Source: an uncultured Acidobacteriota bacterium (GTDB lineage: Bacteria; Acidobacteriota; Blastocatellia; Pyrinomonadales; Pyrinomonadaceae). Taken from it: a stretch of 64,000 nt of DNA. The notes beneath the pieces are model-generated. The model did no database searches. It saw nothing but the letters and a program-made list of their open reading frames with translations, and was not told the DNA's origin. Positions 3,269 to 12,565 of the stretch are shown here, one piece after another. The DNA is taken from positions 1 to 64,000 of the forward strand of contig CADEGD010000022.1 in assembly GCA_902826795.1 (NCBI GenBank), given 5' to 3'. A program made the translations under genes and the position numbers. Each line of letters starts with the position of its first letter. Position 1 is the stretch's first letter.

Positions 3269-4102
3269 TCAGGAGCCGGGGAATTTCTTTATCCCTCGTT
3301 TCTGATTGGCCTTCACCCATCTTCTCTCAAGCTCTTCACGGTCTCGCCACGGGTTGAACGGCGGATCATTCCGCCTCGCCATAGCCCAGATGAACGAATC
3401 GCTGAACGTGCATCGCTTGAACCATCTGATAAGATTTTCGCTCTTTGCGTACCGCTCGTACAACTCCTGTTTGGACACCATCGAGACCGGCGGCCTGTAG
3501 TGACTGTAGAACTGACGGCCTCCGCGAGACGACACGTAAAGGTTTTCCATTATCGTCGCGATGAATTCTTCCTTGTTGTCGTAATCCTCGATCCATTCTG
3601 AATTCTCGGGAGATCCATTCCATCCGAAACGAAGAGCATGGACGAGTTCGTGATAGAGCGTGTCGTCGGATGAGATCACCCACTTATTACGGATCAACGA
3701 CTGGGACGGGCTGTAGTAAAGCCGAATTCCTCCGCCGCCCGCTGCGGTCGTCGAACGAACATAAGCCTCACAATTGTTACAGTCATCCGGCCGTTCATCG
3801 GGGCTCAAGGGAATTATCCAGACCTTCTCGCTGGGGTTCAGAGAATCGAGAGTCACTTTTCCGATCCGCCGCGAGGCAACTAGGTCGAGGTGCTTTACCA
3901 CCTCGCTTTCGAAAGCCAGGGCTATAGCACCCGGTGCGGGGTCTATCTGAATGTCGTCGAGATATTTCTGTACGTTGCGAAGCCTGGCTGTCTCGCGAAA
4001 GTTATGCTTCGCTCCTTGTTCCGCGAGATTCTTATCCCTGTTCGCTTTAAGAGCCGGAGGCGGAACGTTTATGTAGATGGGATAGTCTTTGTACTGTCTC
4101 AT
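3269..4102 (-). CDS. Putative zinc metalloprotease, M91 (NleD-like) type
   Basis: 277 aa with no signal peptide or membrane segment. Residues 151-155 are HELVH, within the context DDTLYHELVHALRFG. About 25 residues later comes NKEEFIATIMEN, which could supply the third zinc ligand (Glu178/179). The HELxHA...R then EEF...EN layout resembles peptidase family M91, the NleD/HopH1-type effector proteases and their many uncharacterised bacterial relatives. That assignment rests on motif shape only. The N-terminal 120 residues are not recognisable. It lies tail-to-tail with prolyl oligopeptidase and downstream of the OB-fold lipoprotein gene on the same strand. The substrate is unknown. Other zincin families remain possible. 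Confidence 0.55.
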   Translation of the reverse strand: MRQYKDYPIYINVPPPALKANRDKNLAEQGAKHNFRETARLRNVQKYLDDIQIDPAPGAIALAFESEVVKHLDLVASRRIGKVTLDSLNPSEKVWIIPLSPDERPDDCNNCEAYVRSTTAAGGGGIRLYYSPSQSLIRNKWVISSDDTLYHELVHALRFGWNGSPENSEWIEDYDNKEEFIATIMENLYVSSRGGRQFYSHYRPPVSMVSKQELYERYAKSENLIRWFKRCTFSDSFIWAMARRNDPPFNPWRDREELERRWVKANQKRGIKKFPGS

Positions 4103-4946: not shown

Positions 4947-7925
4947 CTAGCGCTTGCCGTCGAGATTTGCCCATTCACCAGATTGGATGAAACTGGCCCA
5001 GTAGAAAGGATGCCGACGGTTCGGGCGTTTCAGCATTTCGATCTGTACACGCCGGAGCGATTCGCCGCGGCCGATTCCCTGTTTAAGGTTTTTGTAGTAG
5101 CCGGTCATCAATTCTCGGGTAACGTAATCGCTCACGGGCCAAAGGCTCATAACGAGAGACTCGGCACCGGCAATCACAAAAGCTCTCCTGAGGCCGTAAA
5201 CACCTTCGCCATTTCTTACCTCGCCAAGGCCTGTATCACAGGCTGACAGTACGACAAGCCTTGTACCCCACAGATTTAAGTTTGAGGCTTCAAGCGCGGT
5301 CAGGATTCCGTCGTCGCCTCTGGTAGAGCGGATGTTCGCACCGGCGAAGGCCAAGCCCGAACGGGTCATCGGATTTTCGATGTTGCGCCGCGTTTTCATC
5401 GTCGAGCGAGAACCGCCATCCGAATTGCCGGTGCGGTCCGGCAAAAAGAATCCGTGCGTTGCGATGTGAAGCATCTGCGGCGCGTCCGTTCGTTTGATCG
5501 ATTCCTCGGTCGCGTTTTGACCCGACAGCAAGATTGCGTTCGGGAAAAGAGACTTTATCGAACTCGCTTCAGCTCCGGTTCCCGCCAATTGGGCGAAGTA
5601 TGCGTCGGACATACCTCTCGCGTACGTGACTGCCGGTTTCCTTCTAGCACGGAGCGTTTGTCGACGTCCGGAAGAATTCTCTGCTGTGCCGTCCGGTTCG
5701 CCGAAAAGCGGATCCGCTACGATCATTGGTTGCGCGTGGCTCTCGCGGCGAACGCTCATACGCTTCAGGTCGCGGCCGCTCGTCAAATACGTGAACGAGT
5801 ATTTCTCGATCAAATATTTTCCGTCTTCGTCGATCAGCGCTTCGAACGGAATCAAATTCAATTCTCCGTCCGGCGCAACAAGCAAATGAACAGCGCCGTC
5901 GGCAAGCCTGCGTACCGCCGCCATCACCTTTCCGTCCACGGCCCGAGCCAGGCCGATCGCGTCTTTTCGCTTCGGATCGCGAAGCGCGTCGCGCAATGCG
6001 TTGACAGACACGTCTATATCTTTAACGGGTCCGAGGTCCGCCCAGCCGATCTCGCCAGTTGGGCGAACTACATAAACTGCGTAACGAGCCGAGCCGTAAG
6101 CCTTACCGTTACCGGGCAATTTGGGATCGTAGGGCCGGTAAAAGAAGAACTCGACTAAAGCGGCATCGTCCGGGATTCGGCTTTGGACTTCCGAGACGGT
6201 TACGGCGGGCGAGACTTCGAAATATCCCGCCGTTAGTTTACCGATTTCCGCCTCCAGCTTCCCGCGTCGGGCTTCGATGGCCTTTACCTCGGCTTCGTGC
6301 TCCGCCGGAGGCTTATCTTCCGGCCCTTCCAGGATCGCGTTTGTAAGCTCCGACGTGACGTTTCTGTATTCCTCAATGAGCGGTTTTTTGTCGGGACCGA
6401 GACGCTCGTACACGGCCGAAAGGCTATCGGCCATTGCATCGTGAACGCGACCCTTGCGCTGAAGGATCGTCGAGACGGCGAGGTTCGTGACCTCGCCGTC
6501 CATATCGGCGAGATCGGCTTGCATCGAAACGATCGCAAACGTATCACCGGCGGCTTCGTCGAGCAGTGCCAATTTCTCCTGCTCGGTCCCGCTCGCCAGA
6601 TTTACGTCTAATATGCGGTTCTCGATCGCGATACCGCGGCGCGCGAATTTGACGGCCTCCGATGCATTGCCCTGAACCCAATACAGCCTAGCAAGCCCGA
6701 AAAGAGCTCCTTCGAGGTTTACGCTCTCCGTCTTTTCTACCGAGGATAACGAGCGCCGGTAGGTTTGCTCCGCTTTTGCGAAATCCCCCATCGTTATGTA
6801 AAGAGACCCAAGTTCGTTCAACGCCGAAGCGATTCGGTGCGGGGTCGAGGCGAAGGTCTTCTCGCTTACTTTCACGGCACGGAGCAGCATCTTTTCTGCC
6901 TTTGGCAGATCGCCCGTTTCATGCGCGATGCTTCCGAGAGAGGTTATTACCGACGCAGTGTGAAAATGCTCTGGACCGACGACCTTTTCCCAAATGGATC
7001 CCGCCCGCTCGAAAAGGGCCTCCGCGTTTTTGTAATCGTCGAGTAAATAGTAGAGATCGGCGAGATCTTCGATAACGGAAGCGCCCTCGACCGTTTCCAT
7101 CATGTTAGCTTTCTCGTAAATCTGAATCGCTCGCGAATAACTGTCCTTTGCTTTGTCGGTTTCGCCCTTCCACACGTAAACCTGTCCGAGCTTTTGCAGT
7201 TCCGCCGCGACATACGGGTGGTCGATGCCCTTCTGTTTCTCAAAAATCCCGATCGAACGCTGATAGCTTTCCACCGCTCTGACATAATCTCCGGTCAAGT
7301 GATAATTCGTCCCGAGACTGGAAAGGAGCACAGCGACAACCTCGGCATCTTTTCCATATATACGTTCGTAAATCTCTATAGAACCGATCAGAAACGGCCG
7401 TGCCTCGTTGTATTTTCCGGAGTATTGGAGCGCGAAAAACCGATCTTTCAGTCTGCGGGCCTTTTGGATGTCGATCTCATCGTTGGTCGCGGGGCGGATG
7501 CTTAGAAGAGTTATCTCATACCTGCCCGTCGGGACGGTCATGGAGCCGGCAACGTCGAATTGGTAAGTTCCCGTGGCGTCGGAGATCGTATCGAATTTAA
7601 CCTCCGGCTTAGTACGCTCCGGTATATCGATAACCCGGACGATCTGTCCGTCAGGCTTCTGTGTAAAGACGCGAACGAATGTGCTGATTTGTTTGATGGT
7701 GATCGTCGCCAATTGCCCCGAGTCGATCTTAAGCGAATAACTCTGCTTTTCGCGGGCTTTGACTTCGCGCTCGATCGGTTTGTTCAGTTCGAGCGGCGTA
7801 ACGCTCGAATCTGCGGTTTTCGGCGGATCTTGAGCAAAACATAATGTCAAGAAACATAACAGCAAGACGTGAATGGAGAGGAAACGAAGAGCCGAGCTTA
7901 GAACAGGAACTGCGACCAGCAACAT
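4947..7925 (-). CDS. Secreted TPR-CHAT caspase-like protease
   Basis: 992 aa from the ATG at 7925. A GTG at 7997 would add 24 residues, but the ATG is preceded by AAGGAA at a usable distance. Order of domains: hydrophobic export signal; a beta-rich pre-peptidase-C-like domain (to ~residue 150); about eight tetratricopeptide repeats (~150-430); a helical linker; and a C-terminal CHAT domain (~600-990). The caspase-type dyad is present: His824 in HIATHGFF and Cys896 in LSACDTG. The last residues (HPFYWASFIQSGEW) are typical of CHAT ends. CHAT proteins are cysteine peptidases of the separase/caspase clan, often regulated by partner binding to their TPRs. The genes upstream encode an anti-sigma-like protein and an ECF sigma factor in the same direction, so expression is probably stress-controlled. 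The substrate is unknown. Confidence 0.88.
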   Translation of the reverse strand: MLLVAVPVLSSALRFLSIHVLLLCFLTLCFAQDPPKTADSSVTPLELNKPIEREVKAREKQSYSLKIDSGQLATITIKQISTFVRVFTQKPDGQIVRVIDIPERTKPEVKFDTISDATGTYQFDVAGSMTVPTGRYEITLLSIRPATNDEIDIQKARRLKDRFFALQYSGKYNEARPFLIGSIEIYERIYGKDAEVVAVLLSSLGTNYHLTGDYVRAVESYQRSIGIFEKQKGIDHPYVAAELQKLGQVYVWKGETDKAKDSYSRAIQIYEKANMMETVEGASVIEDLADLYYLLDDYKNAEALFERAGSIWEKVVGPEHFHTASVITSLGSIAHETGDLPKAEKMLLRAVKVSEKTFASTPHRIASALNELGSLYITMGDFAKAEQTYRRSLSSVEKTESVNLEGALFGLARLYWVQGNASEAVKFARRGIAIENRILDVNLASGTEQEKLALLDEAAGDTFAIVSMQADLADMDGEVTNLAVSTILQRKGRVHDAMADSLSAVYERLGPDKKPLIEEYRNVTSELTNAILEGPEDKPPAEHEAEVKAIEARRGKLEAEIGKLTAGYFEVSPAVTVSEVQSRIPDDAALVEFFFYRPYDPKLPGNGKAYGSARYAVYVVRPTGEIGWADLGPVKDIDVSVNALRDALRDPKRKDAIGLARAVDGKVMAAVRRLADGAVHLLVAPDGELNLIPFEALIDEDGKYLIEKYSFTYLTSGRDLKRMSVRRESHAQPMIVADPLFGEPDGTAENSSGRRQTLRARRKPAVTYARGMSDAYFAQLAGTGAEASSIKSLFPNAILLSGQNATEESIKRTDAPQMLHIATHGFFLPDRTGNSDGGSRSTMKTRRNIENPMTRSGLAFAGANIRSTRGDDGILTALEASNLNLWGTRLVVLSACDTGLGEVRNGEGVYGLRRAFVIAGAESLVMSLWPVSDYVTRELMTGYYKNLKQGIGRGESLRRVQIEMLKRPNRRHPFYWASFIQSGEWANLDGKR

Positions 7926-8087
7926 AGCGATTAGCTTCCTTAACCAGCGAGGAGTGGTTTGTGGGCTTATCTTCGCACGACCCGGTGCGAAAATCACTGA
8001 TTATTTCTCGCGAGTCTTCGGGGAGAGACGTCATACGTTAAGGTATTGACGCCGGCTTTTAGGAATTTTGCGAGATGGAAGATCGGG

Positions 8088-9017
8088 CTAGCGTTCTATG
8101 CGAAGGAGGTGTTCGTCGACGATCTCCGACTCGGTATTGGCGTCTAACAGACGGACGCTTCGGATGCCCTTCTTGAGTCGCGACGCGGGAACCCGAACTG
8201 AGACGGAAGTCCGACCGTTGGCAGACTTTCCACGAACTACGGGCGATCGCCAATCGGCGGCACCTGACGCATCACCGATCTCGACTGAGTATCTGCTGGA
8301 TGAAGGCGCCTCGGTTTGAAGAGTCAGGTTCAAAAATTTGGTATTCTCATCGATCTTTACGGAACGCATACTCGTCGATCCACGAGTCGGCGGTGCGAGC
8401 ATGATCGCAACAAACTCGACAGGTGAACGGCGGGTCGGCGTAGGCGAAGGTCGCGGGCTTTCCGTACTCGCCGGAGTTGGTGTAGGCGTGTTCACCGTTT
8501 CCATCGATGGACTCGAAGCCGGAGTTTGCGTTTGCTCGACCGGACTCACCGATGGAGACGAGACCACCGGCGGATCGGTCTGTGAGATCTCTACGGTTCC
8601 GTCTCTACGGAGTAAAAAAGCAGCCAATCCGGCAATGCCGATCAGGACCGCCAGTCCGGCAAAGCCGTATGCGAGCCTCGGCATTCCTCCGCCGAAGAGC
8701 CGCGAGAAAAAGGACGGTTCGGCTGAACGCTCGACAACGACCGCCCTCGGGGCGGCCGCTGTGAGTGTTCTCGAGATCTCGACCTTCTCTCTCAGAGTTG
8801 GAGATCGGGCGAGCAGTGCTTCGATGGCTGCTTTCTCATCTCCATCCGTTCGTCCGGCGACCCAGTCATCGATCATCTCGTACCGTTCAGCCGCCACCCG
8901 CTCGGCAAACTCCGGGCTGGTGACGGAAAGTTCATCGAGCCGGTCGGTAGTCGATTCGTCGAGTCTTCCAGTCAGCAGATCTCTGATCTCTTTCTGTGAT
9001 ATTTCTTCGTTGTTCAT
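8088..9017 (-). CDS. Membrane anti-sigma-like protein paired with the ECF sigma factor
   Basis: 309 aa from the ATG at 9017. An in-frame ATG at 9050 would add 11 residues; neither has a strong Shine-Dalgarno. The N-terminal ~95 residues are cytoplasmic and helical (EEISQKEIRDLLTGRLDE...ERYEMIDDWVAGR), as in anti-sigma factors of this operon type, but lack the HxxxCxxC zinc motif. One transmembrane helix (LAYGFAGLAVLIGIAGLAAFLL) follows. A Pro/Thr/Ser-rich spacer then leads to a ~100-residue beta-rich periplasmic domain. It lies 50 bp after the sigma factor gene and upstream of the CHAT-TPR gene. It probably sequesters the sigma factor and receives a periplasmic signal; this is inference from position and topology. 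Confidence 0.7.
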   Translation of the reverse strand: MNNEEISQKEIRDLLTGRLDESTTDRLDELSVTSPEFAERVAAERYEMIDDWVAGRTDGDEKAAIEALLARSPTLREKVEISRTLTAAAPRAVVVERSAEPSFFSRLFGGGMPRLAYGFAGLAVLIGIAGLAAFLLRRDGTVEISQTDPPVVSSPSVSPVEQTQTPASSPSMETVNTPTPTPASTESPRPSPTPTRRSPVEFVAIMLAPPTRGSTSMRSVKIDENTKFLNLTLQTEAPSSSRYSVEIGDASGAADWRSPVVRGKSANGRTSVSVRVPASRLKKGIRSVRLLDANTESEIVDEHLLRIER

Positions 9018-9067
9018 TCGAGAGGATGGCGATCGGCCATCCGTTAACATAAGACAAATGTCTCAAA

Positions 9068-9682
9068 TCATTTCACGTCATTGCTGCAATTACGGATACA
9101 CGCCTCAAGCTTGTCGCGTATGCGGCACGCGCGGATCGCGAGTGCGTTCGCGCTGATGCCCAATCTCTCGGCCAGTGAACGCCGATGGTCGATCTTCGTT
9201 CGCCGCTCGCCGACATAGTAACCGACGATCATGGTCCGGTCGTCTTCGGCAAGGCCCGACAAACAGCGGTCGAGACACACGCTCAGCTTTTCTTTCCGAT
9301 CGGAATCGTCAAGCTCATCGCCTGTTCGGAGCCGTTCAAGGTCCGCCGGATCAACGCCGTCTTCACGACGTCTGCCCGATCTTAAATATTCGAGAAATAC
9401 AAATTTTGCGGTGATGTAACAGAATTTTGCGGGAGTTTCGGTATCGATCTGACCGACTTCATCGAGACGACGATTGACGCGTTCGAGCGTTTCGTCAGCA
9501 AGTTCGTCCGGAATGTCGCACCCCTTGCGCTCGAAATACGCCACCAGCCGATTCCGAAGCGCCAGATACTCCGCTCCATCAGATTCACGGCCATCGTCGA
9601 TCCACGCAAGAAACCGGGCGAACGACGCCTCGCTCGCTTTCCACCTTGCGCTGATTCTTTCGGTGACGCCGGATTCCGTCAT
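9068..9682 (-). CDS. ECF-type RNA polymerase sigma factor
   Basis: 204 aa from the ATG at 9682 (a GTG two codons earlier is possible). The region 2 helices run through ELADETLERVNRRL...FCYITAKFVFLEYLRSGRR, the core-binding and -10 recognition part. Region 4 is LSGLAEDDRTMIVGYYVGERRTKIDHRRSLAERLGISANALAIRACRIRDKLEACI, a helix-turn-helix. The sequence type is the acidobacterial and cyanobacterial family often found beside CHAT-TPR genes. It heads a minus-strand run of sigma, anti-sigma and CHAT, with gaps of 50 and ~160 bp. It likely activates this operon. Its target promoter could not be recognised. Confidence 0.85.
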   Translation of the reverse strand: MTESGVTERISARWKASEASFARFLAWIDDGRESDGAEYLALRNRLVAYFERKGCDIPDELADETLERVNRRLDEVGQIDTETPAKFCYITAKFVFLEYLRSGRRREDGVDPADLERLRTGDELDDSDRKEKLSVCLDRCLSGLAEDDRTMIVGYYVGERRTKIDHRRSLAERLGISANALAIRACRIRDKLEACIRNCSNDVK

Positions 9683-9739
9683 TAACACTTTTGTCAGAGA
9701 CGGTCTAATTGTATTTAGATTGCCGCAAAAAATGAAGCT

Positions 9740-12565
9740 TTAGCGATGAAACGTGCAGAAATCCTTGGGTTCGGCTCCGGCGGCAAAGATTCGCATCTCC
9801 GTCTTGGGGCAGGCGGCGGTTCCCCGCATTCCGGTTATCGGACAGATGATCACTGAAATGTTTTTCTGCTTTTCGCCGGTTTGAGAGCGAGGCTTCGCCG
9901 GCTGCTGATCCGACTGTTCTTCCCAAGTCTCGTTGATCGGCGTCGCACTTTTTGACGGCGTCGGAGACGGTGTGATCGGCTCGCCAGTCTCGGGATCGTA
10001 TTGAAGGTCGTCTTCCGTTTTCAAAAACGATCGGCCCGGAATCGTACCAGCGACGAACAATTCGATGCGACGAAACTCGGCAGGCACGTCGTCGACAGGA
10101 ACTTCGGTTGTTTCTGGCTGAAACTCGGTCGCCCACGCAGGATCATCTTCAGGTCCGGGAGTTGGCGAAGGCGTAGGTGAGGCTGAGGTTTTTGCATCTG
10201 TCGGAGCAAGGGCGTCAACCTCGCGGATCAGAGATCCGTTGCGGGTATCGATCTCGGCTTTCCGGACGCCGACCGGCATTGACCAGTCGCCGTTCCATTC
10301 AGGGTGACGATCGAGGGCTTCCTTCATGAAATCGGCCCAGATCGGCATCGCGGAGTCGGAACCCTTCATTCCAAGATCATCGCCGTCGTCAAACCCGACA
10401 TATACAACCACAACCAGTTCCGGAGTGAATCCCGCAAACCAGCCATCTCGCGACGTGCCAGTCTTGCCGGCAAGCCCCGTCTTACCGGCGACGTTTCTAA
10501 ATCCCCAACTTTGAGCTTCATACGCCGTGCCGCGATTGACGACGTCTTTCATTATGTCCGTCAGGATGTACGCTACGTCTGAGCGAACTACGTTTTTCTT
10601 GTCGGGCTGAGAAAGCACAACGGTCGAGCCGTCGCCGTTCGTGATCTGCGTGATCGGCATCGGGGCCACGCGGTCGCCGAGGTTTGCGAACATCGTGTAC
10701 GCGGTTGCGACCTGAAGCGGCGTAGATTCCGCCGTTCCGAGAGCCATCGACGGCCACGCTTTCTCGACCTTCGGCAGGCCGGCCTTGTGAGCGAGGTTCA
10801 TCACGCGGCCGATGTTCACCTGCATGCCGATATCTACGGTGACAGTATTCTTACTCTTTACGAGCGCATCCCTAAGTGTTACTTCTTTGTTCGAGAATGT
10901 ATCGCCGTAGTTGTTAGGGGCGTAAGAATCGTTGCCGAAGGTGAATATCTTCTTCTCGTCTTTGAGAACCGTCGCCGCCGTGAAAAGGCGGCTCGATCCT
11001 TCGTACGCGGAGTTGACCGCAGCCGCGTAGACGAACGGCTTGAAGACCGATCCGGGCTGCCGCATTGCACTCGTCGCGCGGTTGAACTGGTTCTCGAGAT
11101 AGTCGCGTCCGCCGACCATTGCGACGATCTCGCCCGTCTTCGGACGTATCGCAACAAGCGATGCGTTCAAACTTCCCTTCGGCTTCTTCGGAAAAAATTT
11201 GTCAAGCTTCTCAAGCCGCTTGCTCACCGTCTCATACGCGATCCGCTGCAGGTCGGGGTCGATCGAGGTATACACTCGCATATGCTGCAAGGCTTCCGGA
11301 TCGCTCACGAGCTTCGGCATCTCTTCGATCACGTGCTGCGAGAAATACGGCATTCCCTGCAAGTCTTTCTTGCTCGAGATCTGTTTAAGCTCAAGCGGTG
11401 CATTTCGAGCCGCGGAGTGCTGTTCGGGCGAGATCTCGCCCGTCTCAAGCATCGAATCAAGCACCTGGTTCCGCCGCTCAGTCACGCGTTGCTGATTCTT
11501 GAACGGGTTGTAACGATTCGGGCTTCGGATAATGCCCGCGAGGAAGGCGGATTCGGCAACGTTCAATTGCGAGACATCTTTACCAAAATATACGTTCGAC
11601 GCCTCGCCAACGCCGTAGATAGACACGCCGAGCTGCTGGCCGAGATAGATCTGATTGGCGTAGAGCGTGAAGATCTCTTCTTTCGTTAGCCGCGTCTCGA
11701 GGATGACCGACATGAATGCTTCTTTAGCCTTGCGTTCGAGTGTCGGATCGTTGTTCAACAAAAGATTCTTGACGAGTTGCTGCGTGATCGAGGAGCCGCC
11801 CTGATTCGCGATCGGCGAATCTTCATCGCCGTCGTATCGCCGCCACGCGGCACGCGCTATACCGCGAAGATTCACGCCGTAATGCTCGAAAAACGCGCGA
11901 TCCTCAGTGACCGTGATCGCCTTGATCAGGTGCGGCGGCAGGTCGGCAAAGTTTACAACCTTGCGCCGCCCGTCGCCCTCGGCCGCGATCGTGCTGAGCA
12001 TCTTGGGCTCCAGCTTCGACTGTTGCTCGATCTTGCCGCTCTCAAGATTTTGGATCGCCTCGACCGACTTTCCGTCCTTCGCAAACTTTACCTGCAAAGG
12101 CGAGAAGGCTTTCGCTCCATTGATGATGGCTGTTGAGCCGGGTTCGATCAAAAGCTTGCCGTCAACGATCGAGTATCGACTGCGGTTCGGGTCAGCCTTT
12201 GCGTTCTTTTCTATATATCCGGCACTCTTCAAATATTCGATGAGGTCCTGAATAGTTACGGCATCGCCCGCTTTGAGAGTCTTGGGGGCTGAATATATGC
12301 CCGCGTTAGGAGTGAATATCTCATTACCAAGCAGTTTTCGATCGATCCGGTCCGAATATTCGAACCAGAAATAAGTAACGCCGAGAAAACCGGTCAGCAG
12401 CAGGACCAATGCAAATGTTCCCGTCCAGATGTTGAAGATGCCGCCAATTATTCGCCGAAATCGCGACCTTGGCGGGGTTTGAAACGCCGTGATCCGTTTC
12501 GCGCGCTTCCAGCCGCCCGGCGGCATTTTCGAGCGCGTGCTTTTTACTATCGGCGTTTCGTGCAT
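9740..12565 (-). CDS. Penicillin-binding protein 1A, bifunctional transglycosylase/transpeptidase
   Basis: 941 aa, a class A PBP. A basic cytoplasmic tail is followed by one transmembrane helix (IFNIWTGTFALVLLLTGFLG). The GT51 glycosyltransferase motifs TEDRAFFEHYGV and GGSSITQQLVKNLLL carry the catalytic glutamates region. The transpeptidase domain has RQPGSVFKPFVY (SxxK), KSKNTV (SxN) and AGKTGTSRDGWFAG (KTGT). The C-terminal tail is Pro/Thr-rich and ends in a cysteine-containing segment (CPITGMRGTAACPKTE...FCTFHR) that could bind metal or form disulfides in the periplasm. It polymerises and cross-links peptidoglycan. It reads divergently from the epimerase gene. Confidence 0.95.
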   Translation of the reverse strand: MHETPIVKSTRSKMPPGGWKRAKRITAFQTPPRSRFRRIIGGIFNIWTGTFALVLLLTGFLGVTYFWFEYSDRIDRKLLGNEIFTPNAGIYSAPKTLKAGDAVTIQDLIEYLKSAGYIEKNAKADPNRSRYSIVDGKLLIEPGSTAIINGAKAFSPLQVKFAKDGKSVEAIQNLESGKIEQQSKLEPKMLSTIAAEGDGRRKVVNFADLPPHLIKAITVTEDRAFFEHYGVNLRGIARAAWRRYDGDEDSPIANQGGSSITQQLVKNLLLNNDPTLERKAKEAFMSVILETRLTKEEIFTLYANQIYLGQQLGVSIYGVGEASNVYFGKDVSQLNVAESAFLAGIIRSPNRYNPFKNQQRVTERRNQVLDSMLETGEISPEQHSAARNAPLELKQISSKKDLQGMPYFSQHVIEEMPKLVSDPEALQHMRVYTSIDPDLQRIAYETVSKRLEKLDKFFPKKPKGSLNASLVAIRPKTGEIVAMVGGRDYLENQFNRATSAMRQPGSVFKPFVYAAAVNSAYEGSSRLFTAATVLKDEKKIFTFGNDSYAPNNYGDTFSNKEVTLRDALVKSKNTVTVDIGMQVNIGRVMNLAHKAGLPKVEKAWPSMALGTAESTPLQVATAYTMFANLGDRVAPMPITQITNGDGSTVVLSQPDKKNVVRSDVAYILTDIMKDVVNRGTAYEAQSWGFRNVAGKTGLAGKTGTSRDGWFAGFTPELVVVVYVGFDDGDDLGMKGSDSAMPIWADFMKEALDRHPEWNGDWSMPVGVRKAEIDTRNGSLIREVDALAPTDAKTSASPTPSPTPGPEDDPAWATEFQPETTEVPVDDVPAEFRRIELFVAGTIPGRSFLKTEDDLQYDPETGEPITPSPTPSKSATPINETWEEQSDQQPAKPRSQTGEKQKNISVIICPITGMRGTAACPKTEMRIFAAGAEPKDFCTFHR

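Follow-up and report, generated by a model that had tools for sequence, protein, structure and literature searches.

A sigma factor gene, a transmembrane protein gene, and a protease-like gene on one strand

We analyzed a stretch of 64,000 nucleotides (nt), referred to here as the window, from an uncultured Acidobacteriota bacterium of the family Pyrinomonadaceae (assembly GCA_902826795.1; positions 1 to 64,000 of contig CADEGD010000022.1). The source genome comprises 4.15 Mb in 98 contigs. Our subject is a group of three genes on the minus strand that encode, in order, an extracytoplasmic function (ECF) sigma factor (positions 9068 to 9688), a putative transmembrane anti-sigma factor (8088 to 9050), and a protein with tetratricopeptide repeats (TPRs) and a CHAT peptidase domain (4947 to 7997). 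The initial annotation of this sequence had described the same three genes, and we found all three open reading frames (ORFs) at the positions, on the strand, and in the order that it gave. The sigma factor has 206 amino acids (aa) when read from a GTG start codon, with an in-frame ATG at 9682. The anti-sigma factor has 320 aa, with an alternative ATG at 9017. The CHAT protein has 1,016 aa from a GTG and 992 aa from the ATG at 7925, which is the likelier start. The sigma factor and anti-sigma genes are separated by 17 nt, and ~90 nt separate the anti-sigma gene from the GTG of the CHAT gene; the gaps are similarly short in most relatives that share this layout.

A divergent ECF sigma factor with conserved cysteines

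Searched as a single sequence, the window sigma factor matched TIGR02989 (E = 4.4e-10), TIGR02937 (E = 1.9e-7), and Sigma70_r4_2 (E = 0.0014), all under the curated cutoffs, and a phmmer search against the PDB returned nothing at an E value of ≤10. A profile of 27 family members matched SigL (6dv9; E = 5.7e-6) and RpoE (2q1z; E = 3e-5) in the PDB. At an E value of ≤1, all 27 members matched TIGR02989 and 25 of the 27 matched TIGR02937. These matches identify the predicted product of positions 9068 to 9688 as a divergent ECF sigma factor.

Region 4 of this family carries two CxxxC pairs. Across the 133 sigma factors of the related loci described below, C138 is present in 112, C142 in 127, C197 in 119, and C201 in 111. 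In 38 control ECF sigma factors, the C142 column holds no cysteine and the C201 column is empty; C138 occurs in at most 3 and C197 in at most 2, maxima that allow for residues beyond the eight listed. The four conserved cysteines might form a metal-binding or redox-active site within the sigma factor itself; the anti-sigma factor has no such site. A second sigma factor of the same family is encoded in the window genome (G000:C32:33156-33773); it is accompanied by a 133-aa anti-sigma factor, and a CHAT gene is absent from the stretch examined.

A putative transmembrane anti-sigma factor without a zinc motif

The protein encoded beside the sigma factor has one transmembrane segment (residues 129 to 147; positions 8610 to 8666). 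It has no cysteine, and so the HxxxCxxC motif of zinc-binding anti-sigma (ZAS) domains is absent, as the initial annotation had said. An N-terminal helical domain (8751 to 9017) is delimited by predicted helices between residues 8 and 88 and by an alignment, designated A7, with the N terminus of the fused proteins described below. The structural model (mean predicted local distance difference test [pLDDT] score, 79.6; predicted template modeling [pTM] score, 0.43) has five helices in this domain, a transmembrane helix at residues 115 to 138, a disordered linker rich in Pro, Ser, and Thr, and a C-terminal β-sandwich (residues 202 to 308; positions 8094 to 8414) that would lie in the periplasm. 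A fold search with the model, in effect confined to the C-terminal domain, returned only generic β-sandwiches.

Assignment of this protein as an anti-sigma factor is backed by its relatives. NF052375 ("antisigma") matched 15 of 27 relatives at an E value of ≤1 (best E = 2.8e-8), and zf-HC2 matched 16 of 27 at ≤0.1 (best E = 1.9e-5). In the PDB, the domain profile came closest to 3hug_B (presumably RslA), a match that was not significant (E = 0.062). Of 149 genomes sampled from the phylum, 32 had a match to profile A7 at an E value of ≤0.001, and many of the stronger matches fall within the class to which the window belongs.

A predicted TPR-CHAT cysteine protease

The third protein matched the CHAT domain family PF12770 above its cutoff (E = 2.4e-77, 264.1 bits; residues 684 to 1007, positions 4977 to 5948) and has the His and Cys of a CHAT peptidase. 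The dyad named in the initial annotation, His824 and Cys896, is numbered correctly from the ATG at 7925; counted from the GTG, the residues are His848 (codon at 5454 to 5456) and Cys920 (5238 to 5240). Both residues are kept in 88 of 89 CHAT proteins across four gene layouts, and the sole exception is a 139-aa fragment that lacks the His region. The TPRs that the annotation had listed were also recovered (Pfam TPR_12 and others), in a helical-repeat region at 6327 to 7484 (model helices between residues 148 and 533). The model (pLDDT, 82.2; pTM, 0.74) has as its nearest structure the TPR-CHAT protein of Craspase (Foldseek E = 3.9e-15; Z = 31.4; root mean square deviation, 5.3 Å over 582 residues), and separases are the next closest among proteases. 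We concluded that the window protein is a predicted caspase/separase-like cysteine protease.

At the N terminus, a hydrophobic helix (7836 to 7898), recognized from hydrophobicity and from the model, is likely an export signal. The description of the protein as secreted rests on this helix, and we regard the protein as probably exported. A clear N-terminal hydrophobic segment was found in 43 of the 66 separate CHAT proteins with a 5′ end, and a C-terminal transmembrane segment was found in 8 of 72. The helix is followed by a domain of predicted β-strands (model residues 51 to 145; positions 7491 to 7775). This had been annotated as PPC-like; the β fold is supported by the model, but the Pfam PPC family gave no match at an E value of ≤1.

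CHAT genes adjoin the sigma/anti-sigma pair in most related loci

Searching 60 related genomes with the sigma factor gave a match in 28. Of 76 hits below an E value of 1e-10, 75 were taken with their surroundings (G053:C110 was left out), and 66 named loci from GTDB genomes, minus 12 duplicates, were added. The scored set held 134 contig blocks and 133 sigma factor ORFs, window included. An anti-sigma gene was scored within 700 nt downstream of the sigma factor gene, and a CHAT gene was scored within 1,700 nt downstream, 700 nt upstream, or 2,600 nt in convergent orientation.

An anti-sigma gene was found in 122 of the 133 loci, a count that is not independent because the anti-sigma profile was drawn partly from the same loci. 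A CHAT gene adjoins the pair in 90 of 133; the CHAT profile was likewise built partly from scored loci, and CHAT identity is supported by Pfam. The CHAT gene is downstream in 25 loci, upstream in 38, convergent in 10, and fused to the anti-sigma gene in 17. We detected the anti-sigma gene in 23 of the 25 downstream and 35 of the 38 upstream layouts; the three upstream cases without it, and several others, sit at contig ends. As many as four of the downstream loci (L213, L230, L238, and L248) encode a CHAT protein without a signal sequence and could be frameshifted fusions.

CHAT genes are common, occurring in 55 of the 60 related genomes, and could be neighbors of the pair by chance, with no functional tie. 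As a control, we scored 40 further ECF loci from these genomes, which are the top matches of the type III-E sigma factor model rather than a random sample. Only two had a CHAT gene within ~5 kb, both convergent and both such that they would pass the convergent rule (90/133 versus 2/40; Fisher P = 3.2e-13); two control loci carry an anti-sigma hit of the window family. Because CHAT genes are so rare at the control loci, and with the partnership kept across several gene orders, chance adjacency is very unlikely indeed. The initial annotation had proposed to look for conserved synteny of the three genes, and they do co-occur in relatives.

In a quick FastTree phylogeny, the window sigma factor belongs to a set of 16 with 100% support, 15 of which share its gene order. 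In the sixteenth (L191), a CHAT ORF lies farther down, behind a 601-aa ORF, and is perhaps part of a split gene. The tree as drawn needs 38 changes of layout, although its well-supported branches force far fewer. The partnership of sigma factor, anti-sigma factor, and CHAT protein thus seems to outlast gene order.

Almost all named relatives of the window sigma factor are titled Acidobacteriota, many of them Blastocatellia or Pyrinomonadaceae. Outside Blastocatellia, a CHAT gene stands beside the sigma factor gene in loci titled Thermoanaerobaculia, Holophagales, Bryobacter, and Solibacter and in one titled Chthoniobacterales; a KSB1 locus, on a short contig, has no CHAT gene beside its sigma factor gene. 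Since these genomes are metagenome bins, single odd titles may reflect misbinning. In the literature searched, whose coverage was limited, we found no description of the split acidobacterial operon, of its breadth, or of the clostripain partner described below. In some pairs (L072, G045:C16:27704-32278; L073, G057:C52:4926-8225), the place right behind the anti-sigma gene is taken not by a CHAT gene but by a gene for a long protein that looks exported and whose repeats appear Ig-like by eye.

Natural fusions place the CHAT domain on the anti-sigma factor

In the 17 fused loci, one chain of 1,159 to 1,254 aa comprises the anti-sigma domain, a hydrophobic segment (starting at residues 114 to 139), TPRs, and the CHAT domain. 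The anti-sigma domain of these homologous fusions can be aligned with that of the separate proteins. Since a cytoplasmic position is required of this domain, CHAT should be outside the membrane in the fusions, in agreement with the N-terminal hydrophobic and C-terminal transmembrane segments counted above in the separate CHAT proteins.

The fusions bear on what the protease does. The initial annotation had placed it under the control of a dedicated sigma/anti-sigma pair. Conserved linkage and the fusions sustain the association, but the fusions, like the Myxococcus anti-sigma factor DdvA described below, point to the protease as an input to the switch and not only a target of the sigma factor. 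If the protease were purely an output, the sigma factor would drive the operon that encodes it, and the protease, once exported, would act on envelope or foreign proteins, not on the anti-sigma factor. The position of the CHAT gene as third in the operon, with short gaps, fits such an arrangement. So do the 10 loci in which the CHAT gene is in a separate convergent unit, several of these with a clostripain gene, and the pairs that have no CHAT gene beside them. Joining of CHAT to the anti-sigma factor itself would be odd for a mere target, however, and DdvA likewise has CHAT inside an anti-sigma factor. We regard a purely output role as possible but doubtful. Because the fusions argue that CHAT feeds into the switch, we favor proteolytic release of the sigma factor over both an output protease and a nonproteolytic sensor.

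A second class of protease emerged when we clustered the neighbors (821 proteins from 126 contigs). A clostripain-family (C11) cluster is present on 20 contigs of 20 genomes (for example, L198:1176-2936 and L208:9874-11556, plus 18 further contigs); the one member run against Pfam matched PF03415 (E = 3.4e-27). In 18 of the 20 contigs, its gene lies on the same strand as the CHAT gene and ≤371 nt from it. An N-terminal segment above the 1.9 cutoff was found in none of the 20 proteins, so these proteases are probably cytoplasmic. Another cluster, of caspase-domain (C14) proteins, occurs on four contigs near some sigma/anti-sigma pairs (one member was run against Pfam; E = 3.9e-22); in one example, L120:1485-2606 (G001:C58), the gene is just upstream of the sigma factor gene.

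Comparison with DdvS/DdvA and with antiphage defense

The CHAT domain profile and the Foldseek search both matched the solved structures 8rot and 8rw5 in the PDB. These are entered there as DdvA, a transmembrane anti-sigma factor of Myxococcus xanthus, and the aligned stretch has ATHG and AACEG at the dyad positions. DdvA inhibits the ECF sigma factor DdvS, and the inducing signal for DdvS was given as unknown in 2015 (PMC4374960). Both systems combine an ECF sigma factor with a transmembrane anti-sigma factor and a CHAT domain that contains the His and the Cys. An anti-sigma factor carrying CHAT, the general makeup of the 17 fusions, is thus already known from DdvA, and the statement in the initial annotation that function is not established has to be qualified accordingly, since DdvA has been studied. 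Unlike DdvA, the window has the anti-sigma factor and CHAT as two genes (the one-chain form is that of the 17 fusions among the 133 loci), and profile A7 did not find the anti-sigma domain of DdvA.

TPRs are typical binding modules, and DdvA is described as dimeric in the title of 8rw5. Both points would suit a CHAT part that serves as a nonproteolytic sensor or scaffold and controls the anti-sigma factor through binding, in dimeric form for instance. Retention of both catalytic residues in almost every member despite wide divergence makes this reading unlikely.

DdvS controls an island of CBASS (cyclic oligonucleotide-based antiphage signaling system) and CRISPR (clustered regularly interspaced short palindromic repeats) genes in M. 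xanthus (PMC12288465). The acidobacterial module might control antiphage defense in the same way, and Craspase, a CRISPR-associated protease, is built from the same kinds of parts. Among 47 neighbors, the PADLOC matches listed include PD-T4-6, mad6, MkoA, PglW, and PDC-S03 (one protein each) and subtilase (two). We did not recognize a defense island beside the window genes, however, and only one weak match was found among the 9 window neighbors. No complete system was recognized among 47 of the 104 listed neighbors of 17 related loci (on the basis of 25 of 41 PADLOC and 25 of 52 Pfam families), and the Pfam matches among those listed were mostly to household proteins. Array-like repeats were not found in the window: at the settings used, only two-copy repeats were present. 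A role in defense is thus quite unlikely.

Comparison with Craspase and other sigma factor systems

In Craspase, the TPR-CHAT protease Csx29 cuts Csx30, an inhibitor of CASP-sigma (PMC10028731). As in the window, a TPR-CHAT protease, a sigma factor inhibitor, and an ECF-like sigma factor are encoded in one locus, and Craspase provides the best fold match for the window protein. Craspase is RNA activated and cytoplasmic, whereas the window CHAT protein would be exported or membrane tethered. The III-E sigma factor model matched the window sigma factor weakly (E = 0.043) and matched 23 of 27 relatives at an E value of ≤1, and neither this model nor the Csx29 model reached its cutoff in any of the 60 genomes.

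We considered descent from, or specific kinship with, Craspase and rejected it. The best hits of the III-E sigma factor model were other ECF sigma factors, with none at the sigma factors of this family among the matches listed (judged by eye), and the best hits of Csx29 were mostly CHAT proteins away from sigma/anti-sigma pairs. The third-best Csx29 hit (G023:C82), however, shares its contig with two such pairs, and Csx29 also matched two of the fusions. Because the III-E models mostly favor other ECF sigma factors and other CHAT proteins, specific homology of the module is rejected and the analogy kept; convergent assembly from common parts is the best reading of the logic they share. The window genome encodes two further CHAT proteins, G000:C48 (L140; E = 9.8e-18) and G000:C89 (L141; E = 4.6e-13), that match Csx29, and the window CHAT protein gave no match at 1e-3. 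In the stretches examined around L140 and L141, a sigma factor of the window family is absent.

Cleavage of RseA by DegS and RseP offers a parallel for the logic proposed here, in which a membrane anti-sigma factor would be cut from the periplasmic side. DegS is a PDZ serine protease, whereas the proposed protease here belongs to the CHAT family and either has its gene next to that of the anti-sigma factor or forms one chain with it. The ECF54 group also has CHAT proteins in a conserved sigma factor gene context and is said to lack an anti-sigma factor (PMC8999054). The high frequency of anti-sigma genes in the present loci (122 of 133) sets them apart from ECF54 as so described. The CRISPR-Lon system CalpL/CalpT/CalpS resembles them in having a protease that cuts a sigma-binding protein and differs in that the protease is of the Lon type, activated by cyclic oligonucleotides, and linked to CRISPR. 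A CRISPR-Lon system is touched on in PMC10028731.

Surroundings of the proposed operon

A gene of the penicillin-binding protein 1 type (9740 to 12565; read by eye) lies on the same strand and ends ~50 nt upstream of the sigma factor gene, and read-through into the sigma operon is therefore possible. Downstream, the product of the gene at 3269 to 4102 has a weak match to Peptidase_M91 (24.5 bits; cutoff, 25); inspection by eye also showed an HExxH motif. Neither of the two genes that follow the operon matched the clostripain or caspase-domain (C14) families. RNA families gave no match at the gathering score between window positions 4000 and 13000, and counts of consensus promoters and terminators at the operon equaled those in shuffled sequence.

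A proposed model for protease-gated release of the sigma factor

We propose that the three genes form one signaling operon and would be cotranscribed. The N-terminal helical domain of the anti-sigma factor would bind the ECF sigma factor and keep it on the cytoplasmic face of the membrane, and the exported TPR-CHAT protein would be the signal-receiving, proteolytic arm on the outer, presumably periplasmic, side. When the TPR part senses a cue, CHAT would cut the periplasmic part of the anti-sigma factor, in trans in the window and in cis in the fusions, and further proteolysis of the anti-sigma factor would then free the sigma factor. We hold with moderate confidence that a periplasmic CHAT protease cuts the anti-sigma factor, or is its sensor arm, and so frees the sigma factor.

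Several observations weigh against this model. Searched alone, the window anti-sigma factor matches known families weakly (NF010501, E = 0.026; zf-HC2, E = 0.83). An export signal above the cutoff is present in fewer than all of the separate CHAT proteins (only the 43 of 66 given above), and the charges that flank the transmembrane segment of the fusions leave its orientation undecided. In 43 of 133 loci, the sigma factor gene has no adjacent CHAT gene; in 12 of these a CHAT gene lies farther off, and in 31 there is none in the available sequence (8 of the 31 are short contigs). CHAT is therefore not obligatory. Lastly, we did not find a shared two-part promoter word upstream of the sigma factor genes, which also counts against the purely output role considered above. 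A role in cell fate, which the initial annotation had raised, is not supported; we found evidence in neither direction.

The clostripain genes, present on about one-sixth of contigs, suggest a tentative extension of the model. The family may be a large class of caspase-gated sigma factors, found mostly in acidobacteria, in which one sigma/anti-sigma core is linked to clan CD cysteine proteases in split, convergent, and fused arrangements. An exported CHAT protease would cut the anti-sigma factor from outside the membrane, and a clostripain-type protease lacking an export signal would cut it from inside. We consider this wider proposal speculative. If it is true, the class would be an envelope counterpart of the protease/anti-sigma/sigma logic of type III-E CRISPR systems, assembled independently. 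For most bacterial CHAT proteases, we know of no natural substrate, and the anti-sigma factors offer candidates. Because split and fused forms both occur in nature, the model is open to direct tests. It would join DdvA and Craspase in one functional theme, and we propose that caspase-like proteolysis may be a general route for the release of sigma factors across the membrane.

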